Shown: piece by piece, positions 1,936-57,374 of the stretch
Layout of the letters: every line of letters starts with the position of its first letter
How positions within the stretch are numbered: the first letter of the stretch is position 1
Assembly (NCBI GenBank): GCA_024734495.1
Contig: JALMQS010000104.1
Coordinates: forward strand, 1,550,001-1,614,000
Reading direction: 5' to 3'
Origin: Forficula auricularia
Taxonomy: Eukaryota > Arthropoda > Insecta > Dermaptera > Forficulidae
DNA: 64,000 bases
Program-made: the position numbers and the translations under genes
The notes under the pieces: generated by a model
What the model saw: only the letters and a program-made list of their open reading frames with translations
Database searches by the model: none
What the model was told of the DNA's origin: nothing

Positions 1936-2783
1936 TGAATTTTTAAATATTTGTTATACAAATCAATAATTAATTTTTTTCTCTGAAATATATTTTTAAG
2001 AAAAGTTCAATATATTGCACGGCATGTTTCATAAATAAATATTAAAATATAGGTAATATTTGTTATTTATTAAAAATATTTTTTAAATTAACAGTAATTA
2101 CCTACATATAAAGATATATCTTCTTTTTTTATTTTAATGAATTTTATATTTTTCAGGGTTCGGATGCCTCTCCTCTTAAGATTCCGCCAGTGTTCATAAA
2201 CACTTAGTAAAACTTTTAATGTGATTATGGGTGTGTACATAAGTAATTTATTATTAATTTAAATTATTTTATCAATTAACATCTTTCACCTCTTTTCCTG
2301 TTTTTAAACCATCATACCTAATTTATACAATTTTTGAAGAACAAATTGAATTCACAGGTGCCTATAGGTATATGTACTTTTTCAACCATCGACCTTATTT
2401 TTTTCATCAGCAACTCGAATAATTTAAATAATAATATTTATTTCTTTATTATAATGTAGGTAATCTAAATGATTTCGGAAGTGGAGGGGGACTCAGACCC
2501 CATGCTCTTTCCGAACTTGTCCTTGATGACTGTCTATAGTTTGAGAAACATGTTTTTTCTATTGTGTACCTATAGTTAATCTATTTTCTGGATCACTAAA
2601 ATAAAGGCGTCCGCTGAAAATTTTACTTGGAGATCAGAGAGGAACAAAAGTGGGAGACAAATAATTATGTTACAATAAATATATTACTGTATATCATTCG
2701 CATCCATAATAAATATTAATTAAAACAGGAATAGCAGGGAATTGGGCAATAAATAAAAAACAGAGCTTTTATTAAATGGGCTA

Positions 2784-2815
2784 GACGTTTCGTCGATTTA
2801 TTTCAACTTCCTCAG
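2784..2815 (-). ncRNA. Hammerhead-ribozyme-like motif (family A)
   Basis: Read on the minus strand: CTGAGGA, one extra A, then GTTGAA / ATAA / ATCGAC as stem II (5 pairs including a U-G), then GAAA and CGTC. The flanking stem I is poorer than in its partner at 2,891-2,938. Activity is untested. Confidence 0.55.
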
Positions 2816-2890
2816 TGGTCCATCTTATCACTCTTTGTCAAAAGACAATTCCACTAATAATGTTTCGTCGCATAATGAAAGAATGATAAG

Positions 2891-2938
2891 ATGGGCCACT
2901 GAGGAAGTCGAAATAATTCGACGAAACGTCTTGCCCAT
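2891..2938 (+). ncRNA. Hammerhead-ribozyme-like motif (family A, best fold)
   Basis: All parts of a type-I hammerhead are visible. Stem I is ATGGGCCA (2,891-2,898) against TTGCCCAT (2,931-2,938), 7 of 8 pairs. CTGAGGA (2,899-2,905) fits CUGANGA. One extra A follows. Stem II is GTCGAA/TTCGAC (2,907-2,912 with 2,917-2,922), six pairs closed by an ATAA loop. Then come GAAA (2,923-2,926) and CGTC, cleavage expected after the C at 2,930. ACGU between GAAA and the cleavage site is self-complementary, so stem III could form between two molecules, as known for hammerheads with very short stem III. The extra A before stem II departs from the consensus. Confidence 0.68.
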
Positions 2939-3364
2939 TTAATAAAAACTTTGTTTTTTATTTATTGTCCAATAGCCTGCTATTCCTGATTTAATTATTA
3001 AATATATTTTTTTCAATTTTTCACAAATAGATTGTACAACACAGCAGTAGGTATCTACTTAAATCAAAACAAAAGTTCATACTAAATAATGTAAATAAAT
3101 TAAGAATATATTTAATATTTTTATTCGATAACAGCAAGGGGGAGGTGGTAAATACCCTTAACTCTCCGCCCTTGCTTCACGTCAGACGTTTCTATTTTAT
3201 TTTAAATTATTTTTTTGATTTTTTTTAGGATCTCAAATCTAAATTGGTGTTAGTAAAATAGTCTCATTTTGTTAGATTTGTAGTTAGTAAAATTTCTTCG
3301 ATTTTTTTTAAATTACGTAGTAGTTTCCGGCTGGTATTTCTTTCCATTGTTTGAATGATGGGAC

Positions 3365-3603
3365 TCACCGATAGTAGGGGAATCCCTGAGGCACGTGGAG
3401 ATCCATAGGGGTGGCATGGTGGTGGTGGGCGGCAGCCGCCGCCGCCGCCGCTGCTGCCGCCGCATGCTGATAGGCGTGCGGGTCGGGGGGCGGCATAACT
3501 CCGCCAACTCCGCCGCCGCCGCCACCCCCGGCATGGCCAAGTACCGCCGCCCACGGGGATGTCGTAAACCCTCCACTGTGCTCCATCCCTTCTGCTAGGG
3601 GTG
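3365..3603 (-). CDS. First coding exon of a probable developmental regulator (left copy, open)
   Basis: On the minus strand an ATG at about 3,583 opens MEHSGGFTTSPWAAVLGHAG, followed by a Gly run, VGGVMPPPDPHAYQHA, about 12 Ala, a short His run, then ATPMDLHVPQGFPYYR. The frame runs to CG|GTGAGT, a strong splice donor at about 3,370, so the in-frame TGA is intronic. Low-complexity Ala/Gly/His runs followed by a conserved-looking PMDLHVPQGFPYYR segment are typical of N-termini of insect nuclear regulators. I do not recognise the family with confidence and infer function only from composition. Codon use is very GC-rich against A+T-rich surroundings. No following exon could be assigned in the window. 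The copy at 27,224-27,444 is frameshifted. Confidence 0.6.
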
Positions 3604-3940
3604 AGTCTGCTGGCCAACACACACGCACGCACACACTGACAGAACTAACACACGACCGAATCAGACACGAGCACTGACACTTGCTGAGCTGTCAACCTGA
3701 CAGTTCATCCTCGCGGGCGACGACAAGTGTTCGTATTCGAGTTCCGCGCGAAGAGCCGGCTGGCCCAGGAATGACGCCAATGGGGCAATGCGCCGCTCTC
3801 GAGAACGGCCACGCCTCTTTACTAAGAAGGGCGGGGTTTTGTGGTCATGTGATCTGCTTCGATAGCCAATCCATGTAAAGGCCACGCCCTGCGAGAGGAT
3901 GGATTTTGCGCGTTGCGAACCACTGGGAGTGTGCACCGGT
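3600..3940 (-). promoter_or_regulatory. CpG-rich promoter / 5' UTR island
   Basis: G+C-rich DNA in an otherwise A+T-rich window, directly upstream (minus strand) of the ATG of the exon. It holds several CpGs, CTCGAGA and CGCGCG strings, GGGCGTGGCC-type GC boxes and an ATTGG (CCAAT) element. A TCAGTG string near 3,680 could be an initiator. Placement as promoter is inferred from position and composition. Confidence 0.45.
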
Positions 3941-3989
3941 CAAATCATATTGCATTATTTAAACATGGATCACAGGCAAAGTGTGGCAT

Positions 3990-5460
3990 ATTTTTAATTC
4001 CATAATGGTCAAGAAAACCCTAAAATATCCTCTAATGCAATTAGTTAATTAAATCTGTTTCAACCCTATTCACTTACCCTTCATTTTATTTGTAAAGTAA
4101 TTTTTTTATCTTTCAAATAAATAAATAAAAAACTTTATTGATTTGAACTACATAGTTTTCGCCATTCTTTGGCTCATTAAAAAAAATTTTAAAATTCATA
4201 ATAGGTATTAAATAGAAAGTTTATTTTTGCCGAGCATAGCAGAATTTTTATAAATTGAAGAGGACAATAAAAGAGTGTCTTTTGATGGAATTATAAATTT
4301 AAAATTAAACTAATTCCAGCAGAAAACACATCTCTTTATTGTCTCCTTCAATAATAGGTAGGTATTCTTTAAAATTTTTGATTGAATTGAAATTATAAAA
4401 TTTTATGACACTAACTCTGAAATACTTTCCAAAAATAAAAATTTAATTTACGCGAATCCGCAAATTAAATTATCAATGTGAAATTATTTCAATATACTTC
4501 CTCAAGATTAATCTTTCTAAAGTCTAGTTTCATGTAAATGGAATATTTATATATGATGTGTCAAATGAAATAATTTTTCGTTTTTTCTACATATTGGGTT
4601 CAAATCTCAAGGGGATGAATTACCATGAATTCTTCTAGTATAATCATTAAATCTCCGTATAGAAACACTAAATTAAATCTTTATTTCATTATACCAATAA
4701 ATACATTTCCTATTTTATTTTTTAGCTTCTTTAATCATTTTTTAGCCTAGTAGGTACTAATACTCTGTGATTTATTTGTGAGTCCAATTCAGGCTAAAAT
4801 TACTCTAGGAGAAAGATTAAACCTATTCGTTTAAGTTTTTGCAGTATGTGGGCCTTGAATTTTGATAGTCCCTTTCTTTGGTATCATGAGAGTTAACTCT
4901 GACTTATAGGTGTTCCACCTTTCTTGGCTGTTTCAAATCAGTAAAAAATTAAGAAACGATAAAATTATTCTTATTCACGAATAAAGAATCAACATTTGAA
5001 TTTTGAAATTTAACTATTTAATGATTTACTGCGTATGTTAAAGTTTAGTATCACTTGACAAAACATTATTTTCTATTAAGATAAAATAAACCTTGGATGA
5101 TAATTATTGTACGCGATGTTAAATTAGTTCCAACTTGCAGGATACCCATTTGGTCCGGATTGAGTTTTGTCATTTTGTTCAATTCTCAAGGGATGAATAC
5201 AACCCTTCGAGTATAAGCATGATAGGATTTTTTCATTAAGGCGCGGATTCAGTAAAAAAGACACCTTTATGATTTCAATTTTCATTAGTAACTAAGTACT
5301 TTATGAAAAGAGACATTGAAGTATCTAAAAATAAATACACAATTTATTCTCATACCTACCTAAGTTTACACTAAGTTTTCTGTCGTTTACTTGCGTCCCT
5401 TCCTATACCTAGTGTTTTTTAATTTCCATTCCTCGACAAAACTTGTAGGTTAAATATATA
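3990..5460. other. A+T-rich DNA with a short foldback
   Basis: No coding signal. At 4,230-4,370 a small palindrome with AGGACAATAAAAGAGTGT and its inverse resembles the outer arms of the hammerhead-bearing foldback at 35.35 kb. The rest is A+T-rich and unassigned. The inverted copy is at about 25.4-26.87 kb. Confidence 0.5.
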
Positions 5461-5480
5461 TATATATATATATATATTGA
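5454..5480. repeat. TA microsatellite
   Basis: About 12 TA units, with a counterpart at about 25,379-25,403 in the other arm. Confidence 0.85.
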
Positions 5481-5828
5481 ATTTTTTATAGAATCGAATT
5501 TAAATTTAAATCGAATATTTTTTATAACCTAACTTCAAAAGTGCCCTTTAAGGGTCTTCTTGAGACTGAGAAGGGTGAAGAGGAAAGGAAGGGTGTGGGG
5601 TGATTTGCGCTTGACCCGATTGTCGTGCCCGGAATCAGCAAACGGCATAGTGCCCCTTTAATTTCCAACCCAGTCACCCCAAACATACATGCAGACAACC
5701 ACTGGCAGTTATGTTTCTTATATTCTTTCTTTAATAATTCTATTCCCCATATATAGTAGTAATCCTAACAACAAAACCCTAAATCACTTAACAAAAATTT
5801 GTAGATGATTATTCTAATAAATATATAG

Positions 5829-5900
5829 AGGCTCAAGTAGTGAGGTGGATAGAGCATTTGACTTCAAATCGGGTTTACTCAGGATTGAATTTCACTTCAA
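5829..5900 (+). repeat. tRNA-derived SINE relic
   Basis: GGTGGATAGAGCATTTGACT resembles a tRNA D-arm/A-box and anticodon stem, and GGATTGAATTTC resembles a B-box. The T stem is imperfect and no acceptor stem closes, so this looks like a SINE head rather than a working tRNA. An inverted copy is at about 24.95-25.03 kb. Confidence 0.5.
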
Positions 5901-6049
5901 ACAGAACAATTTGGGAAACCAGCTGACAAATTGCCCAGGAAAATCATCCATGAAGAATGTTTAGTATAGTAATCGCCAACATTCGAAAGAAAACTCTAAG
6001 CTGAAGACTTTTTTGTAATGATACAGATATAAGAAGATGTCGCATCAAA

Positions 6050-6460
6050 AAAGTGATACCTCTGTACTCCGCAGTGGACCCATGCATCATAAAAAGAAGA
6101 AGGACAAGAAATAGAGATTGAATCTGAGTTGAAGTTACCTGTAGATGTGGGTCTTAAAATATTGAAGGTTATATGACTCGGAAAGAATGTTCCAGATTCT
6201 AAAAGTCATAGGGAAGAACAAGGTTGAAAATGCGTTTGTTCAGGTACTATCTAATTCAACAATGAGGAGGTGTTGGATGTTTAAAAATCGTGGATTTCGT
6301 GTAAATGAAGTTTTAAGGGGGGGAAGTAGATTTATTTTATCTCGTCAGATCTATTATATATTTTTGGCAGTAGGAAATTTGATGAGATTGAGGGGTTTTC
6401 AATATAAATTAGCTGATTATGAGAGTTTTTTTATAATTAGCAAATATTGTATATAGTGTA
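6050..6460 (-). pseudogene. Jockey-like non-LTR retrotransposon 3' fragment
   Basis: Minus-strand translation gives pieces such as SDEIKS, FLNIQH and PMTLES with stops and shifts between them. They match the ORF2 C-terminal pieces seen at 51.3-53.1 kb and 55.57-55.96 kb (CSDEIKS, FANSFIPMTSRD). Only the terminal few hundred bases remain. The 3' end carries the AAGAAG and CTCCGCAGT-type tail shared with the other copies. Dead copy; the inverted-repeat partner is at 24.43-24.85 kb. Confidence 0.6.
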
Positions 6461-6642
6461 CCTATTCTTGTTTCTTTTTTTCTTCTCATTCTCTCTTTAC
6501 TTTTTTTTCTCTTTCTTATTTAATTTATTTCTATTTCTGTAAATTCATATCGATTTTATCATTCATTTTCCAAGTTGTGGGTTTTTTCAAAATTTTCCCA
6601 CCAAAATTTAAAAAAATGATTAAAAATAAAATAAAATAAAAT

Positions 6643-7172
6643 AAATAAGCTGACGTGTTCTGATGTGGCCATCCACTTGACTTAGTTTTTGCATTTTTAG
6701 ACTTCTTGGAGGGCCACCTGACTATGTATACAAAATTTGGTTGAATTTGCTCTAAACGACCTAGATTTTTAATTTTTAACCCCCTCTCCTCCTCCACCCT
6801 ATTTAATTTTGGGTCGATATGCACCAAAATCTAATCAGCTCTTAATCTCAATGGACCAAAATTACGTGTGAAATTTGGTTTCGATATTCACACTGAGTTT
6901 TTGAGCTAGCTCGTCCACAAATTTGGTAACGCACAGACTAACTAACTAAACTAACAAGACATTTTGATAAAACAATTATTATCTGGAAAATATAATTTTT
7001 TCGATGTTCACTTATTAGAGCTTTTGTGTAGAGCGAAATGCCATGGTTTCGCTCAATTTTTTTAATCGAAATAGTTTAAGCCGTTTTTGAGATATTTTTG
7101 AAAAAAAGACGGAAAAAACCACTTTTTTCATGCACGATTACAATACTTGACCATACTCTGTATGGTAAAGTA
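6643..7172. mobile_element. Non-autonomous insertion present only in the left arm
   Basis: The right arm reads straight across this site (near 24,095), so this is an insertion with an empty site in the window. It begins AAGCTGACGTGTTCTGATGT and ends GACCATACTCTGTATGGTAA. A second copy lies at 35,957-36,672 with the same two ends. Internal text includes a C-rich run, AATTTTGGGTCGATATGCA and GACATTTTGAT. No coding capacity. The superfamily is not clear to me. Confidence 0.7.
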
Positions 7173-7199
7173 AAAAGAATATTGTTGTAAATATGGACA

Positions 7200-8069
7200 T
7201 GGGAAGGGAGTATTTATTGCTCAATGCTCAAATAATTATAAAATAAATAATAATAATGTAAATTTTTAATTTGGAAATAAAACATTTTATTCAAAAAAAA
7301 ATATAATAATTATACATACCTATTTAAAAAATGAATAATAATGAAAAGTCATATCTTCGAAAATATAGTCTATAATAAATAGATTATACAAATTTTTAAA
7401 TACTTATCTATAGGCTAGGTATTTGAATAAATATGTACAAATGTTTTAACAAAACAATGTTTAAATGTTTGTTGGATAGCCAAAGTTCTGAAGAAATTCC
7501 ACATTATCAATGCATTTTTTGTAACAAATTTGAATATATATAGTTACTTAAAAAAAAGTTTGATATTTTTAGGTATTGTTTAAAACTTTTGATCTCTCTT
7601 AAATCAAAATAATTTAGTTTAAGAAATTATTTGCTTTTTCTGATGGAACATAATCGAGACAAAACAATATTTAATTAAAATCTAGAATTTTTGAACATTA
7701 TAATAGTCATATAGAATAAAAATTCAAAATGTACTTACTATGCTAGCTAGCCATTCAACTGCCTGGAACAGAATTTTAGAATTTTTTAATCCCAAAATTT
7801 TAGATAGAGAGGAGAATTTAGAAAAAACATTCAATTTTAGAAATTATTCAAATCTGAAACAACAAAAATTAATTAACAAAAGATATGGACTAGTTTTTAT
7901 AATATTCATCAAAAAATTTTAGAGAAAAATAAATTTTTTGTAATTTTTATTTTTTTTATTAATATTATTATTTATCAAGATAATTTCATCAACAAGACAA
8001 TTTTTCTCATTGTCTTTTTTTTCAAATTATTTAGTATTTGCTTAGTGTATCAATTGGTTTATATAAATA
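7200..8069. other. A+T-rich DNA, nothing assigned
   Basis: Shared with the right arm at 23.22-24.06 kb. I see no coding region, RNA gene or transposon end in it. Confidence 0.5.
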
Positions 8070-8213
8070 TGTTGCAGTAAAAACCCATTTTTAGTAAGAA
8101 CGGGTTCTCACTAGTTAAAACGCATTTCATCATTACAAACATCAGTAAATTCTAGTTGCCACAAACGTATTCTGCGAAACGCGTTTTAACTAGTAAGAAT
8201 TGAAAAGTTTTTT
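8070..8213. mobile_element. TGTTGCAG-family MITE, cut by the gap
   Basis: Starts TGTTGCAGTAAAAACC and continues AGTAAGAACGGGTTCTCACT, the same terminal inverted repeat as at 13,703-14,101 and 19,513-19,916. It then runs into the tail of a nested hairpin element (AATTGAAAAGTTTTTT) and stops at the N gap. The fuller counterpart is 22,885-23,218. Confidence 0.75.
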
Positions 8214-13080: not shown

Positions 13081-13149
13081 ACGAAGTCACCCCGTAAATA
13101 TTATAAATATTATATACCTAAATATATTCTTAAATATAATCTTATATTA

Positions 13150-14835: not shown

Positions 14836-15009
14836 ATATCCACAAAGAGAAACAAAGAGGTTGTCCTCTGCTTGATGCAAATAAACATACACACATATAT
14901 ATCATCTCGATTTATAATGTGTGTATGTTTATTTGCATCAAGCAGAGGACAACCTCTTGTTTCTCTTTGTGAATCAACAACTCTGCTACTCTCGGCAAAA
15001 CAAAAACTT
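14836..15009. mobile_element. Hairpin MITE with 9-bp target duplication
   Basis: The arms CACAAAGAGAAACAAAGAGG ... and the inverse form a near-perfect hairpin around TATCATCTCGAT, followed by a single-copy tail CTCTGCTACTCTCGGCAAAA. TTCTAGTAG flanks both sides (14,827-14,835 and 15,010-15,018), a 9-bp direct repeat. Copies or pieces: 22,911-23,084, 40,548-40,597, 41,395-41,480, 45,970-46,005. The superfamily is unclear; 9 bp fits Mutator-like insertion. Confidence 0.78.
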
Positions 15010-15111
15010 TTCTAGTAGTACATAATATTAATAAAGGTGATTAAGACAAATTTGAATTTTCTAGTTTGAATGTAGAATTATTTAACTAAAATTTTTTTAA
15101 AGTTTATACTG

Positions 15112-15352
15112 GGAATTAAGGACAAGTCTTTTGTGTGATGTTTTTTTTTATTTTTTCACCAACATTTCGTCGAATTTTTCCGACTGCTTCAAATATTTAC
15201 AAACTTATTTACTTACTTTAGACTTTGTACTTTAGACGAATGTATAATGTAAATATTTGAAGCCCTGAAGAAGTCGGCAAAGTCGACGAAAGGTTGGTGG
15301 AAAAATATAAAACATCACACAAAAAACTTGACCTTATTTCCCACTATAAACT
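15112..15352. mobile_element. Foldback with hammerhead-like motifs
   Basis: Outer arms: GGACAAGTCTTTTGTGTGAT against the inverse ATCACACAAAAAACTTGACC. Inner ends carry CACCAACATTTCGTCGAA and TCGACGAAAGGTTGGTGG. The right arm holds a nearly complete hammerhead-like core; the left arm has lost CUGANGA but keeps stem II and GAAA (minus strand, about 15,161-15,190). A single-arm relative is at 31,150-31,240. Confidence 0.65.
15265..15298 (+). ncRNA. Hammerhead-ribozyme-like motif
   Basis: CTGAAGA (15,265-15,271), one extra A, GTCG/CGAC stem II (15,273-15,276 with 15,284-15,287), GAAA (15,288-15,291), then GGTTGG. Stem I is short (GCC with GGT). The cleavage-site segment differs from CGTC, so this copy may be inactive. 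Confidence 0.5.
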
Positions 15353-15400
15353 TTCAAATTAATACATATTATGGACGGAAATGATAATCTATATTATATA

Positions 15401-27446: not shown

Positions 27447-27822
27447 GTCCCTTCATTCAAACCATGGAAAGAAATACCAGCCGGAAACTACCGTAATTTA
27501 AAAAAATCGAAAATTTTACTAACTACAAATCTATAAAATGAGACTATTTTACTAACACCAATTTAGATTTGAGATCCTAAAAAAATCAAAAAAATAATTT
27601 AAAATAAAATAGAAACGTCTGACGTGAAGCAAGAGACGGCGGAAGTTCAAATTATTTACCACCTCCCCCTTGCTGTTATCGAATAAAAATATTAAATATA
27701 TTCTTAATTTATTTACATTATTTAGTATGAACTTTTGTTTTGATTTAAGTAGATACCTACTGCTGTGTTGTACAATCTATTTGGCTTGAAAAATTGAAAA
27801 AAATATATTTAATAATTAAATC

Positions 27823-28083
27823 AGGAATAGCAGGCTATTGGACAATAAATAAAAAACAAAGTTTTTATTAAATGGGCAAGACGTTTCGTCGAATTATTTC
27901 GACTTCCTCAGTATTTACATCTTATCATTCTTTCATTATGCGACGAAACATTATTAGTGGAATTGTCTTTTGACAAAGAGTGATAAGATGGACCACTGAG
28001 GAAGTTGAAATAAATCGACAGAAACGTCAAACCATTTAATAAAAATATTTTTATTTATTGCCAAATTCCCTGTATTCCTGTTT
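27823..28083. mobile_element. Foldback with two hammerhead-like motifs (right-arm copy)
   Basis: Copy of 2,727-2,989. Core on minus strand 27,880-27,911 is CTGAGGA, A, GTCGAA/TTCGAC, GAAACGTC, but the upstream half of stem I has changed (GTAAATA instead of GGGCCA), so stem I is lost. Core on plus strand 27,996-28,028 has one extra base before GAAAC. Confidence 0.65.
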
Positions 28084-30814
28084 TATTAATATTTTATTAT
28101 GGATGCGAATGATATACAGTAATATATTTATTGTAACATAATTATTTGTCTCACTTTTGTTCCTCTCTGATCTCCATTAAAATTTTCAGCGGACGCCTTT
28201 ATTTTAGTGATCCAGAAAATGAATTTAACTATAGGTACACAATAGAAAAACATGTTTCTCAAACTATAGACAGTCATCAAGGACAAGTTCGGAAAGAGCA
28301 TGGGGTCTGGAGTCCCCTCCACTTCGAAATCATTTGATTACCTACATTATAATAAAAAGAAATAAATATTGTATTTAAATTATTCGAGTTGCTGATGAAA
28401 AAAATAAGGTCGATGGTTGAAAAAGTACATATACCTATAGGCACCTGTGAATTCAATTTGTTCTTCAAAAATTGTATAAATTAGGTATGATGGTTTAAAA
28501 ACAGGAAAAGAGGTGAAAGATGTTAATTGATAAAATATTTTAAATTAATAATAAATTACTTATGTACACACCCATAATCACATTAAAAGTTTTACTAAGT
28601 GTTTATGAACACTGGCGGAATCTTAAGAGAGGAGAGGCATCCGAACCCTGAAAAATATAAAAATCATTAAAATAAAAAAAAGATATATCTTTACATGTAG
28701 GTACTTACTGTTAATTTAAAAAATATTTTTAATAAATAACTTTTCTTAAAAATATATTTCAACAGAGAAAAAATTAATTATTGTTTGTATAACAAATATT
28801 TAAAAATTCAAATCTCTAAAATACAATCAAAAAACATGTTTATTCGAAACCAAGCGTTTCGGGAGAATTTCTCACTTTTTCAATGAAAATTTGTAAAAAG
28901 AAAATAAAAAAAAAATAGTAAAACGTTTGGTTTCAGAATAAACGTGTTTTATTGTTTTTTAAAAATTTGAATTTTTTAATATCTTAAAAATATAGACAAT
29001 AAGAGAGGATTATTCGTATTACCCCTCCTTAAAAACGACTATTCTTATTTTTCTTTAAAAATAATTTTTTGGTTATCTATATAGGCTCATGAATATTCTA
29101 TTATATGATTACATGATTCTTCAAAGCAAAAAATTATCATAAGCTATAAGATTTTCACAAATTTACAAATTCAATTCAATTAAATACAACCATCACCAAA
29201 ATAACAATAATAATGCTATAATGCTATAGTCAAGGCAAATGTTTAAAAACATTTTGGTTATTCCTAAATTCTCTATGAAATTTGTTTGTATTATATTTAA
29301 TTAACAAGTTTATAGTATATTTAATTAACAATCAAGTCATGTATTATGAGCCTGAAGCTTCTCGAATATATGCCGCCTATTTACTCCTAGAGCCTTTGAT
29401 TTATAAATAGTAAAAATTATTTAAAATAATAGCTTAGAGCTAGTAATTTCTATAAAAATTATTTTAGATTATATAAAATAATTAGTTTGGTGACGTTTTA
29501 TATGTCATAAGAAAAAACTACTGAACTCATGTAATCTCAATTTTGCTTACATTTTTAATTTTTTATTCTTAATTTTTGACTAAGTAAATAACATAAAATT
29601 TATTATAGCTTTATTATTCAAACACTCAGATTATTAACAAAAAACTATCACAATTAATTTTATGTCAAAAATTACATTTTTTTAAATGTAGGCATGAATG
29701 TAAGTATAACTTTGATAAACATTCAATATTTATTTGTTTCTATTAATCTAACTTCATATAATATGCTTAAAACAATTGAAAAAGTAAAAGCTTCTTTTTA
29801 AATTTGTATTTGGTTATTTCTCACTAGATTTTACAGATTTGATCTCATTTGCGGTTCTAAAAATGATTCTAAAATTTTGAAATCTTGATTGAATTTGATA
29901 TTTTCATAGGGGATGAGATCGAAAGTAATTTAAGATAATAAATTAGCGACTGATGTAATTTATGATGAGTTTTACGACAAGAATAAATATTTATTATTTA
30001 ACGAGTTTTTTTCATAACCAGCACTGATAGGAGATAACTGCATTAAAGTCACCAGCATTTAAAACAAATAAATTACTTAATAGATAGATAGGTACCTAGG
30101 TATGTAAATAAAAAGTCGAAAATAAGTACCTATTGCCATCTAATGCAGTAAAAATTTTAAGTTCTAAAATATTAGTTGATACCTTTAACCTATAGGTAAC
30201 CTATGAAATTTGTAAAGTACTTTATTATTATCATTATTATTTTCATTTCAACTGTTGTTTTATTGGCTATAATCACGATAGATGGGACATATCTTCGATT
30301 TATTAACATAGGTATAAGAATTGATAATTGCATGTAAAATCACCCCTTAATGTCTAGTAGCAGCCGATTTGAACGCTAGTTAACGTGAATTAAAAAAGTA
30401 ACAAAAAATATTCTTATGGGTAAAAATATTTTTAATACGTTAATATTACCAAATCTAATAGCAGTTGCTGATTTTACCAATAAACAATATACGAAAAATA
30501 TCAGGCACAAAATTAAAAAAAAAATAATTATTCATGTTAAAATGGAATTATAAGTTAAAAAAACTTGTAGAAAATTTGTTCTAGCGTCAAGATATTTATA
30601 TCTTCAAAACTAAAAACTTTATTGAATTTTATTAGATTAAAAAACTTGAAGCTGAAAAATAAGTAGGTATACAAATTAAAAAAAAATAATAAAAAATAAT
30701 AATAATATCAACAAAGGAGGTTATTTTATCAAATTAGACTCATCTATATGGCCATAGGGTATCTAATCTTTATAATTTGTAGAAATGATGGTGTTGGTGC
30801 AATTGAAACATCTT

Positions 30815-31080
30815 TAATAAAAAGATACAAGTAAATAAAAACCATTATATTTAATATTCATTTACTATGAGTTAAGATTGGTCACTTGTTTCACATTAAA
30901 ATTAAAAAATTAAAAAAAGATGTAACAATTTTATTTTCTGTACTTCCTGAAGATGGGTTGATAGCCCGAAATATATATTTTATTATTTTTTATCTTTTAA
31001 TTTTCAATTTTAATGTGAATCAAGTGACCAAGAATCCATATATAGTAAATGAATATTAAATATAATGTTTGTATATATCT
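30815..31080. mobile_element. Foldback with hammerhead-like motif
   Basis: Arms TTTAATATTCATTTACTA ... TTGGTCACTTG and the inverse CAAGTGACCAAG ... TAGTAAATGAATATTAAA. The core lies next to the right arm. Confidence 0.6.
30947..30976 (+). ncRNA. Hammerhead-ribozyme-like motif
   Basis: CTGAAGA (30,947-30,953), one extra T, GGG/CCC stem II (30,955-30,957 with 30,965-30,967), GAAA (30,968-30,971), then TATATAT, which could give a weak stem III and an A cleavage site. A decayed relative is on the minus strand at about 41,590-41,606. Confidence 0.45.
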
Positions 31081-31149
31081 TTATCTATCTTTAGAATATA
31101 CAACCCTTTTTCTTGCATTTTACTTATTTTCTAATTTGAAATTTTATAA

Positions 31150-31240
31150 TAGGAAAATTAGGACAAAGTTTTATGTGTGACTTTTTTATTTATCAGCAAC
31201 ATTTTATCGACTTGCCGACTTCTTCAGGGTTTCAAATAAT
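31150..31240 (-). repeat. Solo arm of hammerhead-bearing foldback
   Basis: Resembles the left arm of 15,112-15,352 (GGACAAAGTTTTATGTGTGA, then CAGCAACATTTTATCGAC). Minus strand reads CTGAAGA, A, GTCGG..., with GAAA decayed to AAAA at 31,198-31,227, so it is probably inactive. Confidence 0.5.
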
Positions 31241-35340: not shown

Positions 35341-35349
35341 AAATCCAAT

Positions 35350-35655
35350 TGAAGGAGACAATAAAAGAGTGTGTCTTCTGCTGGAATTATGAATTTTATT
35401 TATTTATAAAGAGACTATAGTTTCATTTTCATTTCTTAACTTATAGTTTCAATTTCAATTCTTAACTTGGCACCCTGTATAATTTCTTAACCTAACCCCA
35501 TGAAAAATGTTAACCTTTCATTCATAAATTAATTCCTGTGAATCCATTGTAATAGACTGATGAAGAGGGCAAAGCCCTCGAAACTATGAATCTCTTTATA
35601 AATAAATAAAATTTATAATTCAGCAGAAGACACACTCTTTTATTGTCTCCTTCAA
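35350..35655. mobile_element. Foldback with family B hammerhead-like motif
   Basis: Perfect-looking outer arms: ATTGAAGGAGACAATAAAAG through GAGACTATAGTTTC on the left, GAAACTATGAATCTC through CTTTTATTGTCTCCTTCAAT on the right. The right arm has a whole core; the left (minus strand) keeps only GAAACTATAGTC. Tail ATTCTGCTACTCTCGGCAAA follows, as in the hairpin MITE. Arm relatives are at 4.24-4.37 kb and 26.47-26.58 kb. Confidence 0.72.
35557..35592 (+). ncRNA. Hammerhead-ribozyme-like motif (family B, strong stem II)
   Basis: CTGATGA (35,557-35,563) is the canonical core. One extra A, then stem II GAGGGC/GCCCTC with an AAA loop (35,565-35,579), then GAAA (35,580-35,583) and CTATGAATC. In sister copies this last part is CTATAGTC, giving stem III ACU/AGU and a GUC cleavage site; here it is degenerate. 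Confidence 0.6.
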
Positions 35656-35956
35656 TATATAAAAAATTCTGCTACTCTCGGCAAAAAACTTTCAATTTTA
35701 ATACAAGAAAAAAAATCAATTCAAAATAAGCAAAAGAACTCAATGCCAAAAGTAGTTTTAATAATGGTTAATAGAGAATAAAATTTTTCGAAATTTCCAA
35801 AAATCGTCAAAAAAATAGAATTTTTCATAGGATCGTCACATATAAAAAAAAATTTAATTTGGACGATTTTTGAAGAAGCTATGAACTAAAATTCGAAATC
35901 TTTTAAAAAATTTCAAAATTTACAAAGTTTTTTCGATGGGTACTAAAACATGTCAA

Positions 35957-37830: not shown

Positions 37831-37898
37831 ATAAACATATTAATAAGATTGGAGTAATTTTTGGAGACGGACTGATAAGTGAATTAAGTGGATATCGA

Positions 37899-38112
37899 TG
37901 AGGCAGTCCAAAAAAAATGAAGAAGATAATTTACACTATCTTTTTATTCATAAAATCGACATTTCGGAAGCTGTACCTCCTTCTTCAGGGTTTTGAAAAG
38001 TCAGTGAATTGGATTTCCTTTACTGACTTTTTCAAAACCTGAAAAGAGAATAGCTTCAGCCGGTTTTATGAATAAAAATAGTGTAAATTATCTTCTTTTT
38101 TTGGACGCGCCA
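37899..38112. mobile_element. Foldback with hammerhead-like motif
   Basis: Arms GAAGATAATTTACACTAT ... TTATTCATAAAA and the inverse TTTTATGAATAAAA ... ATAGTGTAAATTATCTTC. A good core sits on the minus strand near the left arm; the right-arm partner (ACCTGAAAAGAGAATAGCTT) is degenerate. The host DNA on both sides matches 62.79-62.88 kb (ACGATCCGTTGCAG). Confidence 0.62.
37958..37988 (-). ncRNA. Hammerhead-ribozyme-like motif (family A)
   Basis: Minus strand: CTGAAGA, one extra A, stem II GGAGG/CTTCC (five pairs with one G-U) around TACAG, then GAAATGTC. Stem I pairs G-C then AAAA with TTTT past one mismatch. Confidence 0.58.
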
Positions 38113-38199
38113 TCATAGATTATCCACTAAAACTAACAAGATTTCAAATGACTTTGAATAACGTTTAGTAACGATCCGTTGCAGTTTTTTTTTTCGAAC

Positions 38200-40845
38200 T
38201 TCTGCTCAGTGGAATTAAAAAATATTTATATATTATTTAGAATCACAACATTTCAAATTTTTGAAAGAAGAAGCCGAATTCCTCATGGGTGGTTCTAGGC
38301 TGGAAAATTTTTTAAATCATCAATGAGACCACAAAAATTTCAATTACAATATAAATTTACGTGTATCTATATATAGGTATATACCATGGAAATTCAGAAC
38401 TTGTATTTTAATCCTCGACGTTTGAAGATTGTTGAAAGACTTTTTTAATTAGGTTGCTATAGTAGGATGTAGGTATAGCAAAGTATGTATGAGATGTAAA
38501 TGAAGGAATGATTTGATTATATATACCAATATATAAGCTTTATATAGGCTTATTCGTCGGTGGCAACTTTCTTGTAGTTTTATCATCTCTAATTGTAAAT
38601 CACTTTTAATTTCTATAAATTACAATCAATTCTACTTCTTTACGAATGAATTAAAAGGGATGCAGTAATGAATGTGAAGTTTTACTTCAGTTCTACAAAA
38701 ACATTAATAGCCGAAATTTCTCTCAGCTGGAGGCCAGGTGATCTTTGCAGATGCAATGGAAACAGATAAAGTGAATCTTCGTTCAATGTCACTTTTTTAA
38801 TTAGCCAAACGCTTTTTAACGAGTCATTTTAGATTGTTATATTGAAAAATCGGGACATGATAGAAAGAGAAAGAAAGAGGTTTTATTGGTATTTTTTAAC
38901 CTTATAAAGAGTTTCGGCTTTTCTTTTCATTTACTCGGCTAATTTGAATGTTGTTGTTTGTTGTCTTTAAGTTTCAATACAAATGGTACGTAATACGTAA
39001 AACTACTTGTCTCGTTTTGATGTCAATTCAGCTTGTCATTTTATTCAAATTCTGTTTCACTAGAATGATTATTTTGGGAATTATTATATTTCAGAATGGA
39101 ATATTTATTTAAATTAATGAGTCAAATTTTTTAAAAATCGAATTTTCCTTGTAATGCATACAAAAGAATGACGTTGCTTGTCTAGACCGAAGAAATACTT
39201 TAGACTCGAAACAAAAACTTGCACAATCATCAACAGATGTCGCTTAAATCTTGAAACTTATTAATTAAACGCTATGATCGATTCAATTCAGATTAATTCA
39301 AATGATTTTTATATTTAATAAATAATAGGAATATTTATTTTTAATGAAATATTTGGCTGAAAAAATTGAGGTAGTGAGAATCACACAAGAAACTTTCAAG
39401 GGTATTATCTCGTATTAATTCGGTTACATATTATTGACGAAAAATCACGATCTTGATTAAAGATATTATATAGAATTAATAAGGTAGGGTCGATTAGATG
39501 AAAATTCACCCCTGACATCTACTGGCGGTGAACAACAACTTTTCACAACATAAGGATAATTGTTGTTATTCGCCGATAGCATGCGTCTCAAGCTGTTGCA
39601 AATTTTGTGATAGTAAATTGTGACTTATTATATTATTTTCAATTCTTTTTAATGCATTTTCTAAGCCAGAATTTGAAATATTATTTTATTTCATAAATTA
39701 TTTTTAAAAAATGTAAGGATAAATAGATAATAAATACTAAGTATATACGAAGAGGTTTATATGTATATCATGGAGAAAAGTAATTTACTGGACCCATCAA
39801 AGAAATGGAAGAATGCGCCATTTTTTAAAGTGAAACTTCTTTAGCGACATATCTGTTTGAATTTTTGTTACAATAAGGGGAAATGACCTATTATAGAGGG
39901 GAAATAAAGACAAGGCTTGATTTTAAAATAATAATTTAAATTTTCCTAATTTTAATAAATTTTATTTGTCGTAAACAATTAGTGGGTTTTAAAAGAATAA
40001 TTTAAATTTTTTAATTTTAAAAAATTTTATTTGTCATGAGCTATTAGTAGGTTTTAAAATTAAAATTTTTACTTCCCCGTGAACTTACCATATGTGGATG
40101 AGGCTCACGAATGTACTTTTCTTTAGTTTGGAAACAATGAATTTCCTGCCTTAATATAATTGTGCTCCGCAATATATATTTTTCCATATTGATTAATATT
40201 AATTATAAAATGAAAAGTAGATATAATAAAAAATGAAACCGAACAAAATCAGATCAAAATTTCAGATTATTGTGTTATTTTGGATAAAAATTTTCTTATG
40301 CATTGTTTTTGAAAAGTTTTTTATATTTACACCCCAAAAAAAAATCGAAAAAATAAATTTACACAATGGAAAAGCAGGAAGAATGTTTAAAATTTTTGAT
40401 TTTTGCTGATCCTTTACGATTCCCCTGAATCTTACAAATTAAAATTTTATTTTACTGAGAAAAGCAGGATTTCGAAAAAAAATCAATACTGATGATTATA
40501 GCTAAAATATTAAATTAGATCCTAAATACCATTATAATAATCTTATAAAGAGAAACAAAGTGGTTGCCTCTGCTTGATGGAAATAAACATACACGCATAT
40601 TTTAAAAGAGACAGAATTCAATCAATCTTTTTCGGACAAATTCTAAGATTTTAGTAGAAATATTAAATTGCGATATCCAGAGGGCTTCATCCCCCAGTCC
40701 GAACCTGAGAACTAACACGCTATCCGGGCAGTCAGCTCACACCCTCGAGACAAAAACCTCTCTGAACCCGAGCTGATTTTTGAAAAAACTACCAACTATT
40801 TTCAGATGCTCAAGACTTTAATTATAAACACATATAATTTCGAAA
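38200..40845. other. A+T-rich DNA, mostly unassigned
   Basis: Apart from the exon duplicate near 38.9 kb, holds a small hairpin at 39,520-39,580 (GGCGGTGAACAACAAC with GTTGTTATTCGCC), pieces of the 37.19-kb family at 39.92-40.07 kb, a fragment of the hairpin MITE at 40,548-40,597, and a weak tRNA-like string on the minus strand at about 40.69-40.74 kb. Confidence 0.5.
38899..38965 (-). pseudogene. Decayed duplicate of the 42-kb exon
   Basis: Minus strand matches the 3' half of the exon at 42,065-42,222: ACATTCAAATTAG and AAAAGCCGAAACTCTTTATA are the same. It has TAA where the exon has GAA, and the splice donor GGGTAAGT has become GGTTAAAA. Intronic flanks also match (38,800-38,900 against 41,965-42,060), so a genomic segment was duplicated rather than a processed transcript. 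Confidence 0.65.
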
Positions 40846-40848
40846 TTA

Positions 40849-41070
40849 TATATCTGTATATAGATTATTTATTTGTTTGAAACTATAGTAGCCTGAAAAT
40901 TGATTTTAGTACAATGGCTCTCAGCTAAGTCAAGATCAAAAAAATTTCAATATCCATACAATTCTGACCCCATGAAAAATGGCCACTAATAATTAAAAAG
41001 GACTGATGATGAAAGCCAAGTCTTCGAAACTATAGTCTCAAACAAATAAATAATAAATATACAGATATAT
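40849..41070. mobile_element. Foldback with family B hammerhead-like motif
   Basis: Arms ATATATCTGTATATAGATTA ... GAAACTATAGT and the inverse ACTATAGTCTC ... AATATACAGATATAT. The right arm has the whole core; the left has only the GAAACTATAGT part. Confidence 0.68.
41003..41037 (+). ncRNA. Hammerhead-ribozyme-like motif (family B)
   Basis: CTGATGA (41,003-41,009), one extra T, a weak stem II GAA/TTC (41,011-41,025), GAAA (41,026-41,029), then CTATAGTC. ACT/AGT pair as a 3-bp stem III around AT, and GTC ends at 41,037, the expected cleavage position. This shows the intact family B stem III. Confidence 0.58.
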
Positions 41071-41208
41071 TTTTTTGCAACGAAATTTTCTCCTGGAAGA
41101 CGGACTGGTAGAAATTTTAATTGAAAGTAACTGGATAATGAAGGTAGTGAGAAGAAAAAATTAACACATATAAAACTAAGGTGTAATTTATTGGAATCCT
41201 TCTCCTTT

Positions 41209-41264
41209 CCTTTCAAACCGACGTTTCCGGAGGATTTTTCCCTCCTTCTTCAGGGTTTCAAAGG
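41209..41264 (-). ncRNA. Hammerhead-ribozyme-like motif (family A, strong stem I)
   Basis: On the minus strand, CCTTTGAAACC (41,264-41,254) can pair with GGTTTGAAAGG (41,219-41,209), 10 of 11 pairs, as stem I. Between them are CTGAAGA, one extra A, stem II GGAGG/CCTCC (41,245-41,241 with 41,233-41,229), an unpaired G, GAAA and CGTC ending at 41,220. Long stem I plus a 5-bp stem II in the right order is hard to get by chance. Confidence 0.68.
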
Positions 41265-50112: not shown

Positions 50113-50147
50113 GACTATAGTTTCAAATGTTTGACCTTTTTCATCAG
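50113..50147 (-). ncRNA. Hammerhead-ribozyme-like motif (family B)
   Basis: Minus strand: CTGATGA, a region with only AAA/TTT pairing as stem II, GAAA, then CTATAGTC with 3-bp stem III ACT/AGT and GTC. Flanks TATAACAAATAAATTAAAT match family B arms at 35.6 and 41.05 kb. Weak stem II suggests decay. A further 3' remnant (GAAACTATAGTCTC, minus) is at about 56,065-56,080. Confidence 0.5.
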
Positions 50148-50149
50148 TA

Positions 50150-51290: not shown

Positions 51291-51291
51291 A

Positions 51292-52018: not shown

Positions 52019-52838
52019 TTTTTTTTTTTTTTTTTTTTTTTAATGCAATCGAATGCAGAAGAGTTGCACCAGTAAAGATGTAGCCCCTATGGATCTCGAA
52101 AGACCCTTGCATTACCGAAGAGAAGGAAAGTTGATTATAAGTGAGGGTGTAGACGTGGGTATCATGCACCCTGGTTTTGAAGGTTTTAAGATCATAGGTG
52201 CTGGGAAAAATATAGAGGCAGGAGAGAGTTCCAGTTCCTTGAAGTCATGGGGATATATGTATTCGCGAATTAAGTGGTCCGGCGCTTTTCCAATTTGACC
52301 GCAAGAGTGTTGGGAGTCCGCAAAACGTGTGCTGCGTGCAAAGCATGCTTTGGGGGGAATTATTGATTTATCTCATCAGAGCACCTGCCGTGATAGTATC
52401 TATAGAAAGGGAAAGGGCGAGACATCTCTTCGATGAGCCAGCGAGTCGAGGGGTCGGTGAGGGTAGAATCGTCAATTAGCCTGACGGCTCGTTTCTGAAT
52501 TGCATCAAGGGTAGCAAGAAAGTATTTTTGAGGCTCCTCTCCACAGATGAGAGCGTATTCGAGACAGGGGCGGATTTGGGCCTTGTAGATGGTGAGAAGT
52601 TGTGGGGGTTTGTAAAATCGCTTGGACCTGAATAAAAAATAAATCTTCCTTGCTGCAGATTTATACGGGGAATGTGTTCATTCAAGACAGGTCAGATGCG
52701 ACAGAGACGCCCAACATGGATAGGCTGTCACACATTTTCAGGGTATTCGAATCGAAGTGAATATCAGGAAATCTCTATTTTCGCGCCTAGAAATTAGACA
52801 ACATTGAGTTTTTATTTGAATTAAAGTTTTAGCGATCA
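52019..52838 (-). pseudogene. Nested, opposite-strand Jockey-like copy
   Basis: Minus-strand copy with its poly(A) tail at 52,019-52,041 (T-run on plus) and a 5' truncation near 52,835 (GATCGCTAAAACTTTAATTC, corresponding to 51,480). Translation pieces: KTQCCLISRRENRD, NEHIPRINLQQGR, NEPSG. It ends with the same AATGCAAGGGTCTTTCGAGA and GTTGCACCAG tail pieces as the outer copy. Frameshifted throughout. Confidence 0.8.
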
Positions 52839-53105
52839 AATTAGAAAAGTGCCGGACCGCTTCATTCGCCACTACGTATATCCCCATGACTTCAAGGAAC
52901 TGGAACTCTCTTCCAACCTCCAAATGCCACCAGCACTTATAATCTTCAAACCTTCAAAAACCCGGTGCATAAACACCTACGTACACCCTCTCACTTAATC
53001 AACTTTCCCTTCTCTTCGGTAATGCAAGGGTCTTTCGAGATCCATAGGGGCTGCATCTTACTGGTGCACCCCTTCTTGCATTCGATTTCATTAAAAAAAA
53101 AAAAA
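52839..53105 (+). pseudogene. Outer Jockey-like copy, 3' end and poly(A)
   Basis: Picks up directly where 52,018 stopped: AAATTAGAAAAGTGCCGGAC corresponds to the codons after CCCAACACTCTT in the nested copy. It continues to GGTCTTTCGAGATCCATAGG, GGTGCACC and a poly(A) run at 53,093-53,105, the element's 3' end. Confidence 0.75.
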
Positions 53106-53299
53106 GAGTTTATCACTTAAGACGAAAAAAGACAAATTTGCTAGTTTGCTATATTAAGGTGCTCCTTATTTTGTGTATTTTCGGATTTTTATGCTGACAG
53201 AGGCTCATATGGATCGAAATAAATAAAAAAGAAATCTTAAAAGTTTCAAGACTTTATCTCAATTTTAACCTGTGCCGCACAGCGATGCTAGTTTCCCAT

Positions 53300-53652: not shown

Positions 53653-53654
53653 TT

Positions 53655-55100: not shown

Positions 55101-55104
55101 AACC

Positions 55105-55129
55105 GACGTTTCGGAGGATACTTCTTCAG
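55105..55129 (-). ncRNA. Hammerhead-like motif, stem II shortened
   Basis: Minus strand: CTGAAGA, AGTATCCTCC, GAAACGTC. The CCTCC half of stem II is kept and its partner is lost. Stem I AAACC/GGTTT persists outside. Probably a decayed family A copy. Confidence 0.45.
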
Positions 55130-55569
55130 GGTTTAAAAGATTCAACGAAGAAACTTATAGCCACCTGTTTCTTGTTCTTTTCTTTAACATGATTTTTGTG
55201 ATTAGACACATTTTTATAAGAAACTCATAGTTTTCAATACCATTGGGCTGCCTTTCCATCATTTTTTCAATGATTGTCTAATAAGTTTCCTTAAACAAAC
55301 AGATGTGGCTGAATATAAACAAAACAATAGTTTTCTATAATACAAGCAAATAATAATTTTTTTTGGAAATAAATATCATGAAAAATATCGTTTCTATGTT
55401 TATAATATAGACTTTTCGCAGCCAGTTAGTTTTGTTTTATTGGTCTAGTCCCGCCCAAGTAATCCAAAAGTCCTGTATTCGTAACATGACGCAATCAGTA
55501 TATCATCAGACGTCAGGTGAAACGTTCTTTTTCAGTTTAAAATTAGCAAATGCTCCTAATTGATATATT

Positions 55570-55965
55570 TATTTTTTTATTGATACAAGAAGAAGTTGCA
55601 CAAAATAAGTAGAGCCTCTGTAGTCCGCGGTGGTCCTAGTATCGTGAAAAAGAAGAGATTTCAGTGATTGGGCCAGATTTGAAGGTATCTGTGGATGAGG
55701 TCCTGAAAGTCCGAAGGTTATATGTCGCCGGGAAGATAGATAGATTTATTGTTGTTCTGAGATCAGATGAGGAAGCGAGCTCGTCTCTAGAAGTCATAGG
55801 GATAAACGAATTGGCGAATGCCTTTGTTCGATTACTATACAATTTAATGTTGAATGTCAAAAAATCGTGAATTTCGCGCAAATGAAGCTTTGGAGAGGGG
55901 TTTTATTGATTTTATCTCGTCAGAACAAACGCCATGGTAATAACTCAGACCATACCACCTTGTAA
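55570..55965 (-). pseudogene. Jockey-like non-LTR 3' fragment
   Basis: Minus-strand pieces GVCSDEIKS, RNSRFFDIQH, AFANSFIPMTSRD and FPATYNLRTFRT are the C-terminal motif series of the family at 51.3-53.1 kb, with a frame change between the first two and the last two. The 3' tail near 55,580-55,620 matches those at 6.06 and 24.8 kb. Confidence 0.72.
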
Positions 55966-56099
55966 TAAGGTAAACAATACACGTGAAAATATGTTTTTGC
56001 GTCCCTCTACTTGACGCAAATAAACATACACAGATACATATATAATATATAATTTGTTTGTTAGAGACTATAGTTTCGAAAAAATAATTATTTCGGAAA

Positions 56100-57340
56100 A
56101 AGATGTGAACCATAGCAAGAAATATATTTCAATTACAAAATGTGTTTTGCACGAGGTATCATAATATTAGGTGTGAATGAAATCTATTAAATAAAACAAA
56201 TAAGATGATAAAATTGTCGTAAATACATTTTCTAATTGAAATTCGTGCCTTATTTTTTAATTGAAATTTTGGTCTTTTTGGAGGGAGGGGGTGTTAAGCT
56301 ATAAACTTAGTGAAGTAGACAATATACACATAATATGTGGATTTGGTGCTTTGGTGATTATTAAAAGACAAATTGAAATCACGTAGATTAAACATTTTGA
56401 AAAGATATTCTCATATTACAATGTACATTTTTGACACCTATTTTTTCACCTCGTCTCAAATATTTGTGAAGTCATCCTACAAAGTCGACTTTGTACATTT
56501 TGATGAGAATATCTTATCAAAAATATTTAATAGATGATATTAGCTGGAACTTATATTTTGATATACGCCTGGAAGTTAGTCAACTGGTCAGGTTTTGGGA
56601 TCATTTTCGATGTAGCGAGAATCATTTGAATTTTCTTTAAAATTCAGCTTATATTCAAGTCTTACGGAAACACTATTCAATTGCTTTTTTTAAGTTTTTT
56701 TTTGGAATTCGCTTACATACTGATGTGAAATATACACACTTGGCGCTTTCATAGTTCAATCATTAAATTGAGACCATTTTCGATATTGAGAAAATCATTT
56801 GAAGTTTCTATTAAATGTGATTCTTAAAAAATCTGAGAAATCTCCCCCTTCAATATCGTTTTTAAACTTGCATTTTGTGTGTGTGTGGGGGGGGGGGGGT
56901 GCTATACGTATAAATTCTGTAAATATACATATAATCACGAAACAAATTACAATTGTGATCGTTTTAAGATCTATTTTCAAATGTTCAGTAAAAATTGATT
57001 TAATAGATTTTATTGTTGAAAGGTGTCATATTATTTATTTATTTTTGAAAGTAGTGGCTTAAATAAATCGAACAACATAGATATGTTTTTTTAGTTCAAT
57101 AATCATGTTAGAACCATTTTTAATGTAGAGATTAATTAATTTAATATTTCTCTAAAACGACGCTTCGGCTTCAACTTCAAGAGTCGTTATCAAGGATGCT
57201 GAAAAATATTTAATTAAAGTATGATTTTTGGTGAATTGATTGATTATAACCTGAACCTTTTTTTTTTGGAAGACAGTTTAAGTATAAATAGAAAGATGAA
57301 TCCCAATAAAAAAGATTTATTGGAAACTTCCCCTTTTACA
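56100..57340. other. A+T-rich DNA with weak direct repeats
   Basis: Three loosely similar stretches (GATCATTTTCGATGTAGCGA near 56.6 kb, GACCATTTTCGATATTGAGA near 56.77 kb, GAACCATTTTTAATGTAGAG near 57.11 kb) recur at about 0.2-0.35 kb. A GT/G-run lies at 56,878-56,900. No genes. Confidence 0.45.
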
Positions 57341-57350
57341 CTTTTGAGCT

Positions 57351-57374
57351 GACGTTTCGGAGAATCTTCTTCAG
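57351..57374 (-). ncRNA. Hammerhead-like motif, stem II shortened
   Basis: Minus strand: CTGAAGA, AGATTCTCC, GAAACGTC. Half of stem II (TTCTCC) remains. Stem I is weak. Probably decayed family A. Confidence 0.4.

Follow-up and report, generated by a model that had tools for sequence, protein, structure and literature searches.

Minimal type I hammerhead ribozymes are known from Penelope-like elements (PLEs), a poorly understood class of eukaryotic retrotransposons (Cervera & De la Pena 2014 and Lunse 2017, via PMC7761336 and PMC6155905), and their role there is called unknown (PMC7761336). In the rotifer Adineta vaga, Penelope elements have head-to-head inverted pseudo-long terminal repeats (pseudo-LTRs), palindromes at the inverted junction, target duplications of 8-10 bp and an optional 31-bp tail on one pseudo-LTR (PMC3846280). 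The PLE protein of Anolis cleaves and extends both strands, its start site being no different between them; reverse transcription has two internal start sites 3' of the hammerhead, and the tail is the sequence that separates them. In this element hammerhead cleavage needed the protein and was dispensable for insertion (PMC11167929). We studied a stretch of 64,000 nucleotides of Forficula auricularia DNA (contig JALMQS010000104.1, positions 1,550,001 to 1,614,000; the window, in whose own numbering positions are given below), which carries hammerhead-like motifs, many of them in palindromic foldback elements. The reading we favour, with a probability of about 0.8, is that these motifs are hammerheads of the minimal type I kind, belonging to PLEs and to a short non-coding unit with the same mode of insertion, and that the foldback is the product of insertion.

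Two classes of hammerhead motif

A direct scan of the window found seven occurrences of CTGANGA-N5-30-GAAACGTC against 0.01 in dinucleotide shuffles; CTGANGA-N5-30-GAAACTATAGTC occurred twice (0.0 in shuffles) and CTGANGA alone 55 times (15.4 in shuffles). Joint reading of the sites and of 200 kb of upstream sequence gave two motif classes: class A, with the consensus aaacc CTGAAGA A GGAGG..CCTCC GAAA CGTC ggttt, and class B, with the consensus aga CTGATGA N GAAGG..CCTTC GAAA CTATAGTC tct. The hammerhead core, C3UGANGA9 and G12AAA, was present: in 23 aligned sequences C, T, G, A, N, G and the AAA of GAAA were invariant, and the G of GAAA was kept in 22. Aligned copies with a stem II of at least three pairs had one additional base, A or U, between CUGANGA (A9) and stem II, and the hammerhead rule that no base stands there does not hold for them. 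A viroid hammerhead with an additional core nucleotide is the subject of a paper cited in PMC6155905.

Stem II covaried, with 94.2% of cells paired against 77.7% in shuffles and changes on both sides at five of five pairs (23 sequences); it was shortened in copies A3, A8 and B7. In class A, stems I and II together showed both-side changes at 9 of 11 pairs, and stem I, with 78.9% of cells paired, also covaried. No stem III was found in cis, where only ACGU or ACUAUAGU occurred, both palindromes. A palindromic helix III could form between two molecules or two tandem copies, as a dimer. Because two-strand minimum-energy folds, one for a class A copy and one for a class B copy, swapped stems I and II between the molecules, leaving the core unpaired, instead of forming helix III, we put this dimer conditionally. 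What similarity can be detected from one class A family to another is centred on the motif, which therefore seems to be constrained, for cleavage or for protein binding; copies may be catalytically active.

We built two models from this genome, R1 from 15 class A and R2 from eight class B training sequences. In 264 kb, training sequences included, 42 R1 and 37 R2 matches, some common to both, were obtained at E <= 1; 31 and 17, respectively, lay at E < 1e-3. An earlier reading of the window from its letters alone (the sequence-only reading) had named about 15 sites of a hammerhead-like family. The family proved real, being enriched over shuffles, compensated in its stems across copies and matched by R1 or R2, at E <= 2e-5, at 12 of the 13 well-formed sites. 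The thirteenth, 30,947, had no match to either model at E <= 1, and several of the supported sites are duplicates, since the pairs 2784/2899 and 27880/27996 go back to a single locus, duplicated as an inverted copy (93%). Among the sites named as decayed, 31,198 scored weakly (R1, E 0.0017), and 1,863, 41,590, 46,324 and 47,522 had no R1 or R2 match at E <= 1. Three of the 13 sites (2784, 2899 and 57351) are in the training set and eight more have a near-duplicate there (an upstream inverted copy of the window, or the duplication 1-8213/23073-30708), so that only 15,265 is a nearly independent positive.

Across the 1.06-Gb genome a strict class A pattern occurred 7025 + 6791 = 13,816 times, up to two per class A copy, and a backwards control pattern 0 times. 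The hammerhead covariance search with Rfam that the sequence-only reading had proposed was negative: 0 matches reached the gathering score, and the 50 matches at E <= 10 included no hammerhead, a result to be expected if helix III is absent. A whole-genome search with RF00008 gave no signal in any control genome and hence carries no information.

The ribozymes had a regular orientation. In foldbacks shorter than 400 bp all 15 strict sites, counted with duplicates, faced outward: a ribozyme in the left arm was on the minus strand and one in the right arm on the plus strand. The lone exception was a loose match of 937 bp. The 53 highest-scoring model hits in 264 kb included 26 with an inverted partner on the 5' side and one with such a partner on the 3' side. 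A hand count within 400 bp over the listed strict-pattern places, a part of the 13,816, gave at least 14 minus-then-plus pairs and one plus-then-minus pair.

Three further arrangements were observed. Three class A hammerheads stand in direct tandem at C4:1022704-1022984, spaced by about 118-120 bp, which would permit the dimer. A possible third class ("class C"), CTGAAGATGGG..CCCGAAATATATA with a palindromic helix III and without model support, occurs at window 30947-30971 and at L008:3718. The unit of a 119-bp tandem satellite at window 61362-62388 contains plus-strand CTGAAGA and, in most cases, minus-strand CGAAACGTC; the satellite had no hammerhead-model match at E <= 1.

Carriers of the motifs and their ends

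Class B is, by its sequence surroundings, a Penelope-like element. The fetched locus L007 presents, in this order, an inverted reverse transcriptase (RT) fragment, an RT frame that matches TIGR04416 (E 2.5e-12, below the model's own cutoff), a GIY-YIG-like reading that is interrupted, and a hammerhead of class B; a Pfam search of L007 returned no RT match. The GIY-YIG endonuclease domain (PF01541) exceeded the Pfam gathering score of 22.6 in L054 (27.9) and L049 (30.3), the evidence for RT and for GIY-YIG coming from different stretches and copies rather than from one continuous open reading frame (ORF). A genome search for PLEs, in which 73 of 6565 candidates were scored, gave for family 1 at least 18 rows besides the query, 98-100% identical over residues 2-598 without a stop and with open frames of 734-832 amino acids, and for family 2 rows 62-64% identical with open frames of up to 838 amino acids; frames of 829-838 amino acids were among those seen. 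Family 1 has the hammerhead in its 5' (L052) and 3' (L055, L007) pseudo-LTRs, L052 and L055 being 97% identical over 309 nt; family 2 is in tandem and has the hammerhead on either side, upstream in L054 and downstream in L053, with 99.5% identity over 623 nt between the two.

The window holds such pseudo-LTRs too. In the foldback at 35348-35656 (B1), the left arm (35348-35424) is identical to the 3' pseudo-LTR of L053 at 75 of 77 positions, and the right arm with its tail (35455-35701) at 229 of 249; the tail, of about 31 nt, continues the right arm from about 35657. On this match the foldback is two head-to-head pseudo-LTRs of family 2, and the possible Penelope link raised by the sequence-only reading is borne out. 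Around site 41003, 106 of 124 positions agree with the 3' region of the family 3 PLE in L049 (RT 50% identical), and site 50113 matched PLE regions more poorly (best 65/83). In B1 and in foldback B2 (window 35384-35460 and 40838-40907) the other arm ceases to be similar within the hammerhead, at GAAACTATAGTC, immediately 5' of the predicted cleavage site.

Class A is an abundant non-coding unit of about 270 nt, which we compared in 30 fetched rows with flanks of about 1.5 kb (L021-L050; L023/L024, L041/L042 and L045/L046 are each one locus). Measured by arm ends, 26 of the 30 rows had a 5' partner and four had none; by partner score, 25 had an inverted 5' match. The outer end was constant, at +140 to +152 from C3 in A2-like copies except L047, at +102 to +118 in six of eight A1 rows (L033, +85, and L035, +164, deviate) and at +124 in both A12 rows. 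The inner arm end varied from -144 to +112 (L047 apart). A tail was present on exactly one arm in all 20 rows inspected by eye (18 distinct loci); in A2-like copies it was about 44 nt long and ended near GTTGCAAAA. A target duplication of at least 7 bp, flush with the tail-less end and repeated near the tail end, was found at 13 of the 18 loci, against 21 of 306 mismatched pairs.

Whole-genome DNA queries with L039 and L047 gave a similar picture; scoring covered the best 40 candidates out of 1900 and 2963, respectively. The long arm spans about -130 to +140 from C3. With the query excluded, an opposite-strand 5' partner abutted 30 of 39 (L039) and 28 of 39 (L047) best copies, and a 3' partner was found for 0 among the matches listed. 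With the L039 query the partner kept its 3' end in 25 of 30 cases (query 636-657) and its 5' truncation positions varied. Ends were uniform at query 375/640 and 269/545, which may partly reflect the ends of the query copies; as the two queries agree, the class A unit likely has a defined 5' end. Partner arms ended within 10 nt of the predicted cleavage site in 3/28 (L047) and 3/30 (L039) cases and exactly at the site in none. The unit showed no consistent pair of Pol III boxes.

Two candidate explanations were discarded. That class A is the pseudo-LTR of a visible coding PLE looked likely at L049, but the PLE there has its own 3' class B hammerhead, and the class A foldback stands beside it as an element apart. 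Ribozyme-cut RNA was rejected as template, the element ends and junctions missing the cleavage site.

Insertion mechanism and rival explanations

Constant outer ends with variable inner junctions indicate that the palindrome arises at each insertion from a non-palindromic RNA; most likely, each palindrome was formed afresh. A process with one start place and variable stops implicates reverse transcription, and the simplest account is one cDNA per target strand, from different start sites. The RNA of a PLE, or of the short unit, would carry one hammerhead, upstream of the start of reverse transcription. A staggered break would open at the target and cDNA would be primed on both sides from one region of the RNA, at the distal start site on one side, giving a tail of about 30-45 nt, and at the proximal site on the other. 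The two antisense cDNAs would then join at their far ends, leaving two inverted head-to-head arms, one of them tailed, and a target duplication of 7-14 bp; two short cDNAs would give a small palindrome with two opposed hammerheads. We infer that PLE enzymes also move class A, that priming takes place on both strands rather than by hairpin self-priming of one cDNA, and that the arms are joined. Class A is not filed here as a PLE, only as PLE-type in its mode of insertion, because no coding partner is attached to it in the 30 rows and their flanks. Tentatively, and at slightly less than even odds, it might be a coding-free parasite of PLEs resembling a short interspersed nuclear element (SINE): an RNA of about 270 nt with a defined 5' end, one hammerhead and two start sites, present as thousands of palindromic copies in which each strand was primed at a different start.

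Several observations weigh against the favoured reading. Neither an ORF with RT and GIY-YIG nor another coding partner was found beside class A in the 30 rows and their flanks, and class A is linked to the PLE machinery through the common insertion signature. An inverted 3' match was scored at four of the 30 loci (L034, L035, L042 and L043; a second element adjoins L042/L043), and 9/39 and 11/39 of the best copies from the two genome queries had no adjacent partner among the matches listed. Five of the 18 loci lacked a clear target duplication, and a common stretch of at least 7 nt, when unanchored, discriminated weakly (14/18 against 132/306 in the control). Stem I of class B is weak, with 62.5% of cells paired, and pairing over the whole class B structure is no better than in shuffles (100 of 500 equal it). 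In many of the truncated class A foldbacks the arms are equal and the loop is shorter than 20 nt, which leaves room for hairpin priming.

Under such hairpin priming, a single cDNA made at the target would fold back at its 3' end and prime the second arm, as has been proposed for the rotifer Penelope palindromes (PMC3846280). Among the 26 class A rows that have a partner, 15 show loops of at most 27 nt (12 of 23 when distinct loci are counted), truncated copies with loops of 1-16 nt among them, and equal arms with tiny loops are explained more easily by one self-folding cDNA than by two independent ones. Full copy-back, however, would put a tail on both arms, which disagrees with the single tail of every row inspected, and strongly unequal arms occur, with partners of about 35-50 nt beside full arms; we therefore regard self-priming as unlikely, though it deserves serious weight. 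Far less probable is the proposal of the sequence-only reading that the foldback itself works as a unit, transcripts of either strand being cut by its opposed hammerheads into defined-end or circular RNAs serving transposition. Intact hammerheads in both arms do exist (an antisense one within 700 nt on the 5' side in 9/30 rows, several rows being one locus twice), and circular RNAs are reported for metazoan retrozymes (PMC7229834). Predicted folds speak against it: in ten of ten full foldback transcripts (eight loci and both strands of window 2709-3005) the probability of stem II was 0.0000 and that of stem I also zero. Single arms formed stem II with a probability of 0.90-1.00 in seven of eight cases (0.00 in L048; stem I reached only 0.26 in L026), and four solo copies were mixed, at 0.98, 0.41, 0.68 and 0.16. 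Folding thus favoured the single arm and not the whole foldback, and since the predicted folds pair the arms with each other, burying the ribozyme, the foldback copy is probably silent as a ribozyme, the working RNA being the single arm. Against both-strand cleavage stand also the positions of ends and junctions, off the predicted cleavage site (outer end at about +140, 5' end at about -130 from C3), and the single sense copy in each foldback transcript, given that minimal type I hammerheads perhaps act as dimers (PMC7761336). Nor is there a master foldback of which the others would be copies, because the inner junctions differ.

Differing junctions bear equally on a third possibility, foldback DNA transposons of the type of miniature inverted-repeat transposable elements with a captured hammerhead. 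Such elements would likewise be short, non-coding and palindromic with target duplications, but copies of a family would have a common inner structure; here it is the outer end that is constant, the tail makes the two outer ends unlike, and the class B foldback of the window is a PLE pseudo-LTR pair, so this origin appears very improbable. That AT-rich repeats bear CTGANGA and GAAA incidentally, for which the absence of a hammerhead by Rfam might speak, is refuted by the enrichment over shuffles, the 13,816 genome-wide occurrences against 0 and the covariation, and its chance is practically nil.

If class A is a PLE parasite of the kind suggested above, with each strand primed at a different start, the one-tail rule would be a genomic record that PLE integration depends on an obligatory pair of cDNAs, one for each strand. 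The many short but complete insertions, in which two ends, an inner junction and target duplications can be read, form a natural data set on PLE insertion; both strands seem to serve, with two start sites and without ribozyme-cut ends. Opposed ribozymes in a foldback need not signify a design for cleavage of both strands.

Sites of the window and comparison with known systems

The sequence-only reading had placed most motifs in foldbacks, where the arm meets the loop. Palindromes of about 240-360 bp indeed hold sites 2784/2899, 15265, 27880/27996, 30947, 35557, 37958 and 41003; sites 41220, 50113, 55105 and 57351 lie outside palindromes. The arm-loop position fits some foldbacks, but the class A motif lies inside the arm. 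Foldback A7 (2678..3033; arms 2678-2836 and 2878-3033) has two opposed class A minimal type I hammerheads, predicted at 2784..2815 (minus strand, left arm; R1 61.2 bits, E 1.8e-14) and 2899..2930 (plus strand, right arm; R1 62.6 bits, E 6.6e-15). Its inverted near-duplicate (27797..28098) has the counterpart of 2899 at 27880..27911 (minus strand; R1 42.8 bits) and that of 2784, with one additional A before GAAA, at 27996..28028 (plus strand; R1 35.1 bits). Foldback A10 (15069..15395) contains opposed decayed hammerheads: a class A core whose CGTC was lost to GGTT at 15265..15291 (plus strand; R1 30.6 bits, E 2e-5), and its opposite-arm partner at 15147..15196 (minus strand; R1 22.9 bits, E 0.0038). 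The foldback at 30798..31117 includes the plus-strand motif 30947-30971, unsupported by the models, and the weak class A relic named as 31,198 spans 31184..31237 (minus strand; R1 24.1 bits). In foldback A1 (37853..38153) the hammerhead is readable in the left arm, at 37958..37988 (class A1, minus strand, with a TGTC site; R1 55.2 bits), and decayed in the right.

Among class B sites, foldback B1 (35348..35656) has its hammerhead, with the site changed to CTATGAATC, at 35557..35592 (plus strand; R2 65.9 bits), and B2 (40836..41087) has one in a single arm, at 41003..41037 (plus strand; R2 79.4 bits). Outside foldbacks are class B4 at 50113..50147 (R2 72.1 bits), the solo copy A2 at 41220..41253 (R1 64.9 bits) and, both with a short stem II, A3 at 55105..55129 (R1 55.1 bits) and A8 at 57351..57374 (R1 37.5 bits; in the training set), all on the minus strand. 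A short foldback of the B3 family (14838..14974), matching the outer part of B3, has arms that end before the hammerhead.

Window 1-8213 is the inverted partner of 23073-30708, at 93-96% identity, and the 50 kb upstream of the window mirror the sites of window ~30-57 kb in inverted order (C7:1525-1550 kb); these large inverted near-duplicates are perhaps haplotypes placed side by side in the assembly. Open frames rich in alanine, glycine and histidine at 3264-3691 and 27125-27496 look like one exon in both duplicated copies. Tandem arrays with a unit of about 116-125 bp and C-rich tracts were seen at 15965-16663 and 17506-17726 (mutually inverted) and at 36064-36306. An RT fragment lies inside a local inverted duplication at 51292-53105 (89% over 537 bp); Pfam, applied to 10 of the 44 ORFs of the window, found only this RT fragment, at 51292-51549 (weak RVT_1, E 0.0096).

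Compared with the metazoan non-LTR retrozymes, as far as they are covered by PMC7229834 and PMC7761336, the elements described here are similarly non-coding, a few hundred nt or less in size and provided with a type I hammerhead, with dependence on PLEs supposed. Retrozymes are direct repeats, most invertebrate ones with a stable helix III, whereas the units here are single or head-to-head and without helix III in cis; direct repeats of the retrozyme type, each with a hammerhead, were not encountered, the copies inspected being single or inverted apart from the one tandem trio listed at C4:1022704-1022984. Closer are the minimal type I hammerheads of PLEs, which by the available accounts agree in core, in stems I and II, in an absent or reduced helix III, in thousands of copies dispersed through animal genomes and in their location in PLE pseudo-LTRs. 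Many carriers here differ in being coding-free foldbacks, and the additional base before stem II in the copies aligned here may be a further difference.

Among the top-listed titles of literature searches none treated coding-free foldback copies of PLEs with hammerheads, a one-tail regularity or a SINE-like PLE parasite; the main PLE-hammerhead papers were not covered, and absence is not thereby proven. The opposed pair itself, which the sequence-only reading had taken for an undescribed arrangement, corresponds to the head-to-head inverted pseudo-LTRs of the rotifer Penelope in the available text of PMC3846280. With the Adineta vaga elements ours share these head-to-head pseudo-LTRs, the palindromes at the inverted junction, the tail on one side and the short target duplication; they differ in that the pseudo-LTR pairs occur here without an ORF and in large numbers, class A having so far no coding partner. 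Already described are the ribozyme type, its link to PLEs and the head-to-head arrangement of pseudo-LTRs; apparently new are the large population of coding-free foldbacks and the regularity of one tail.

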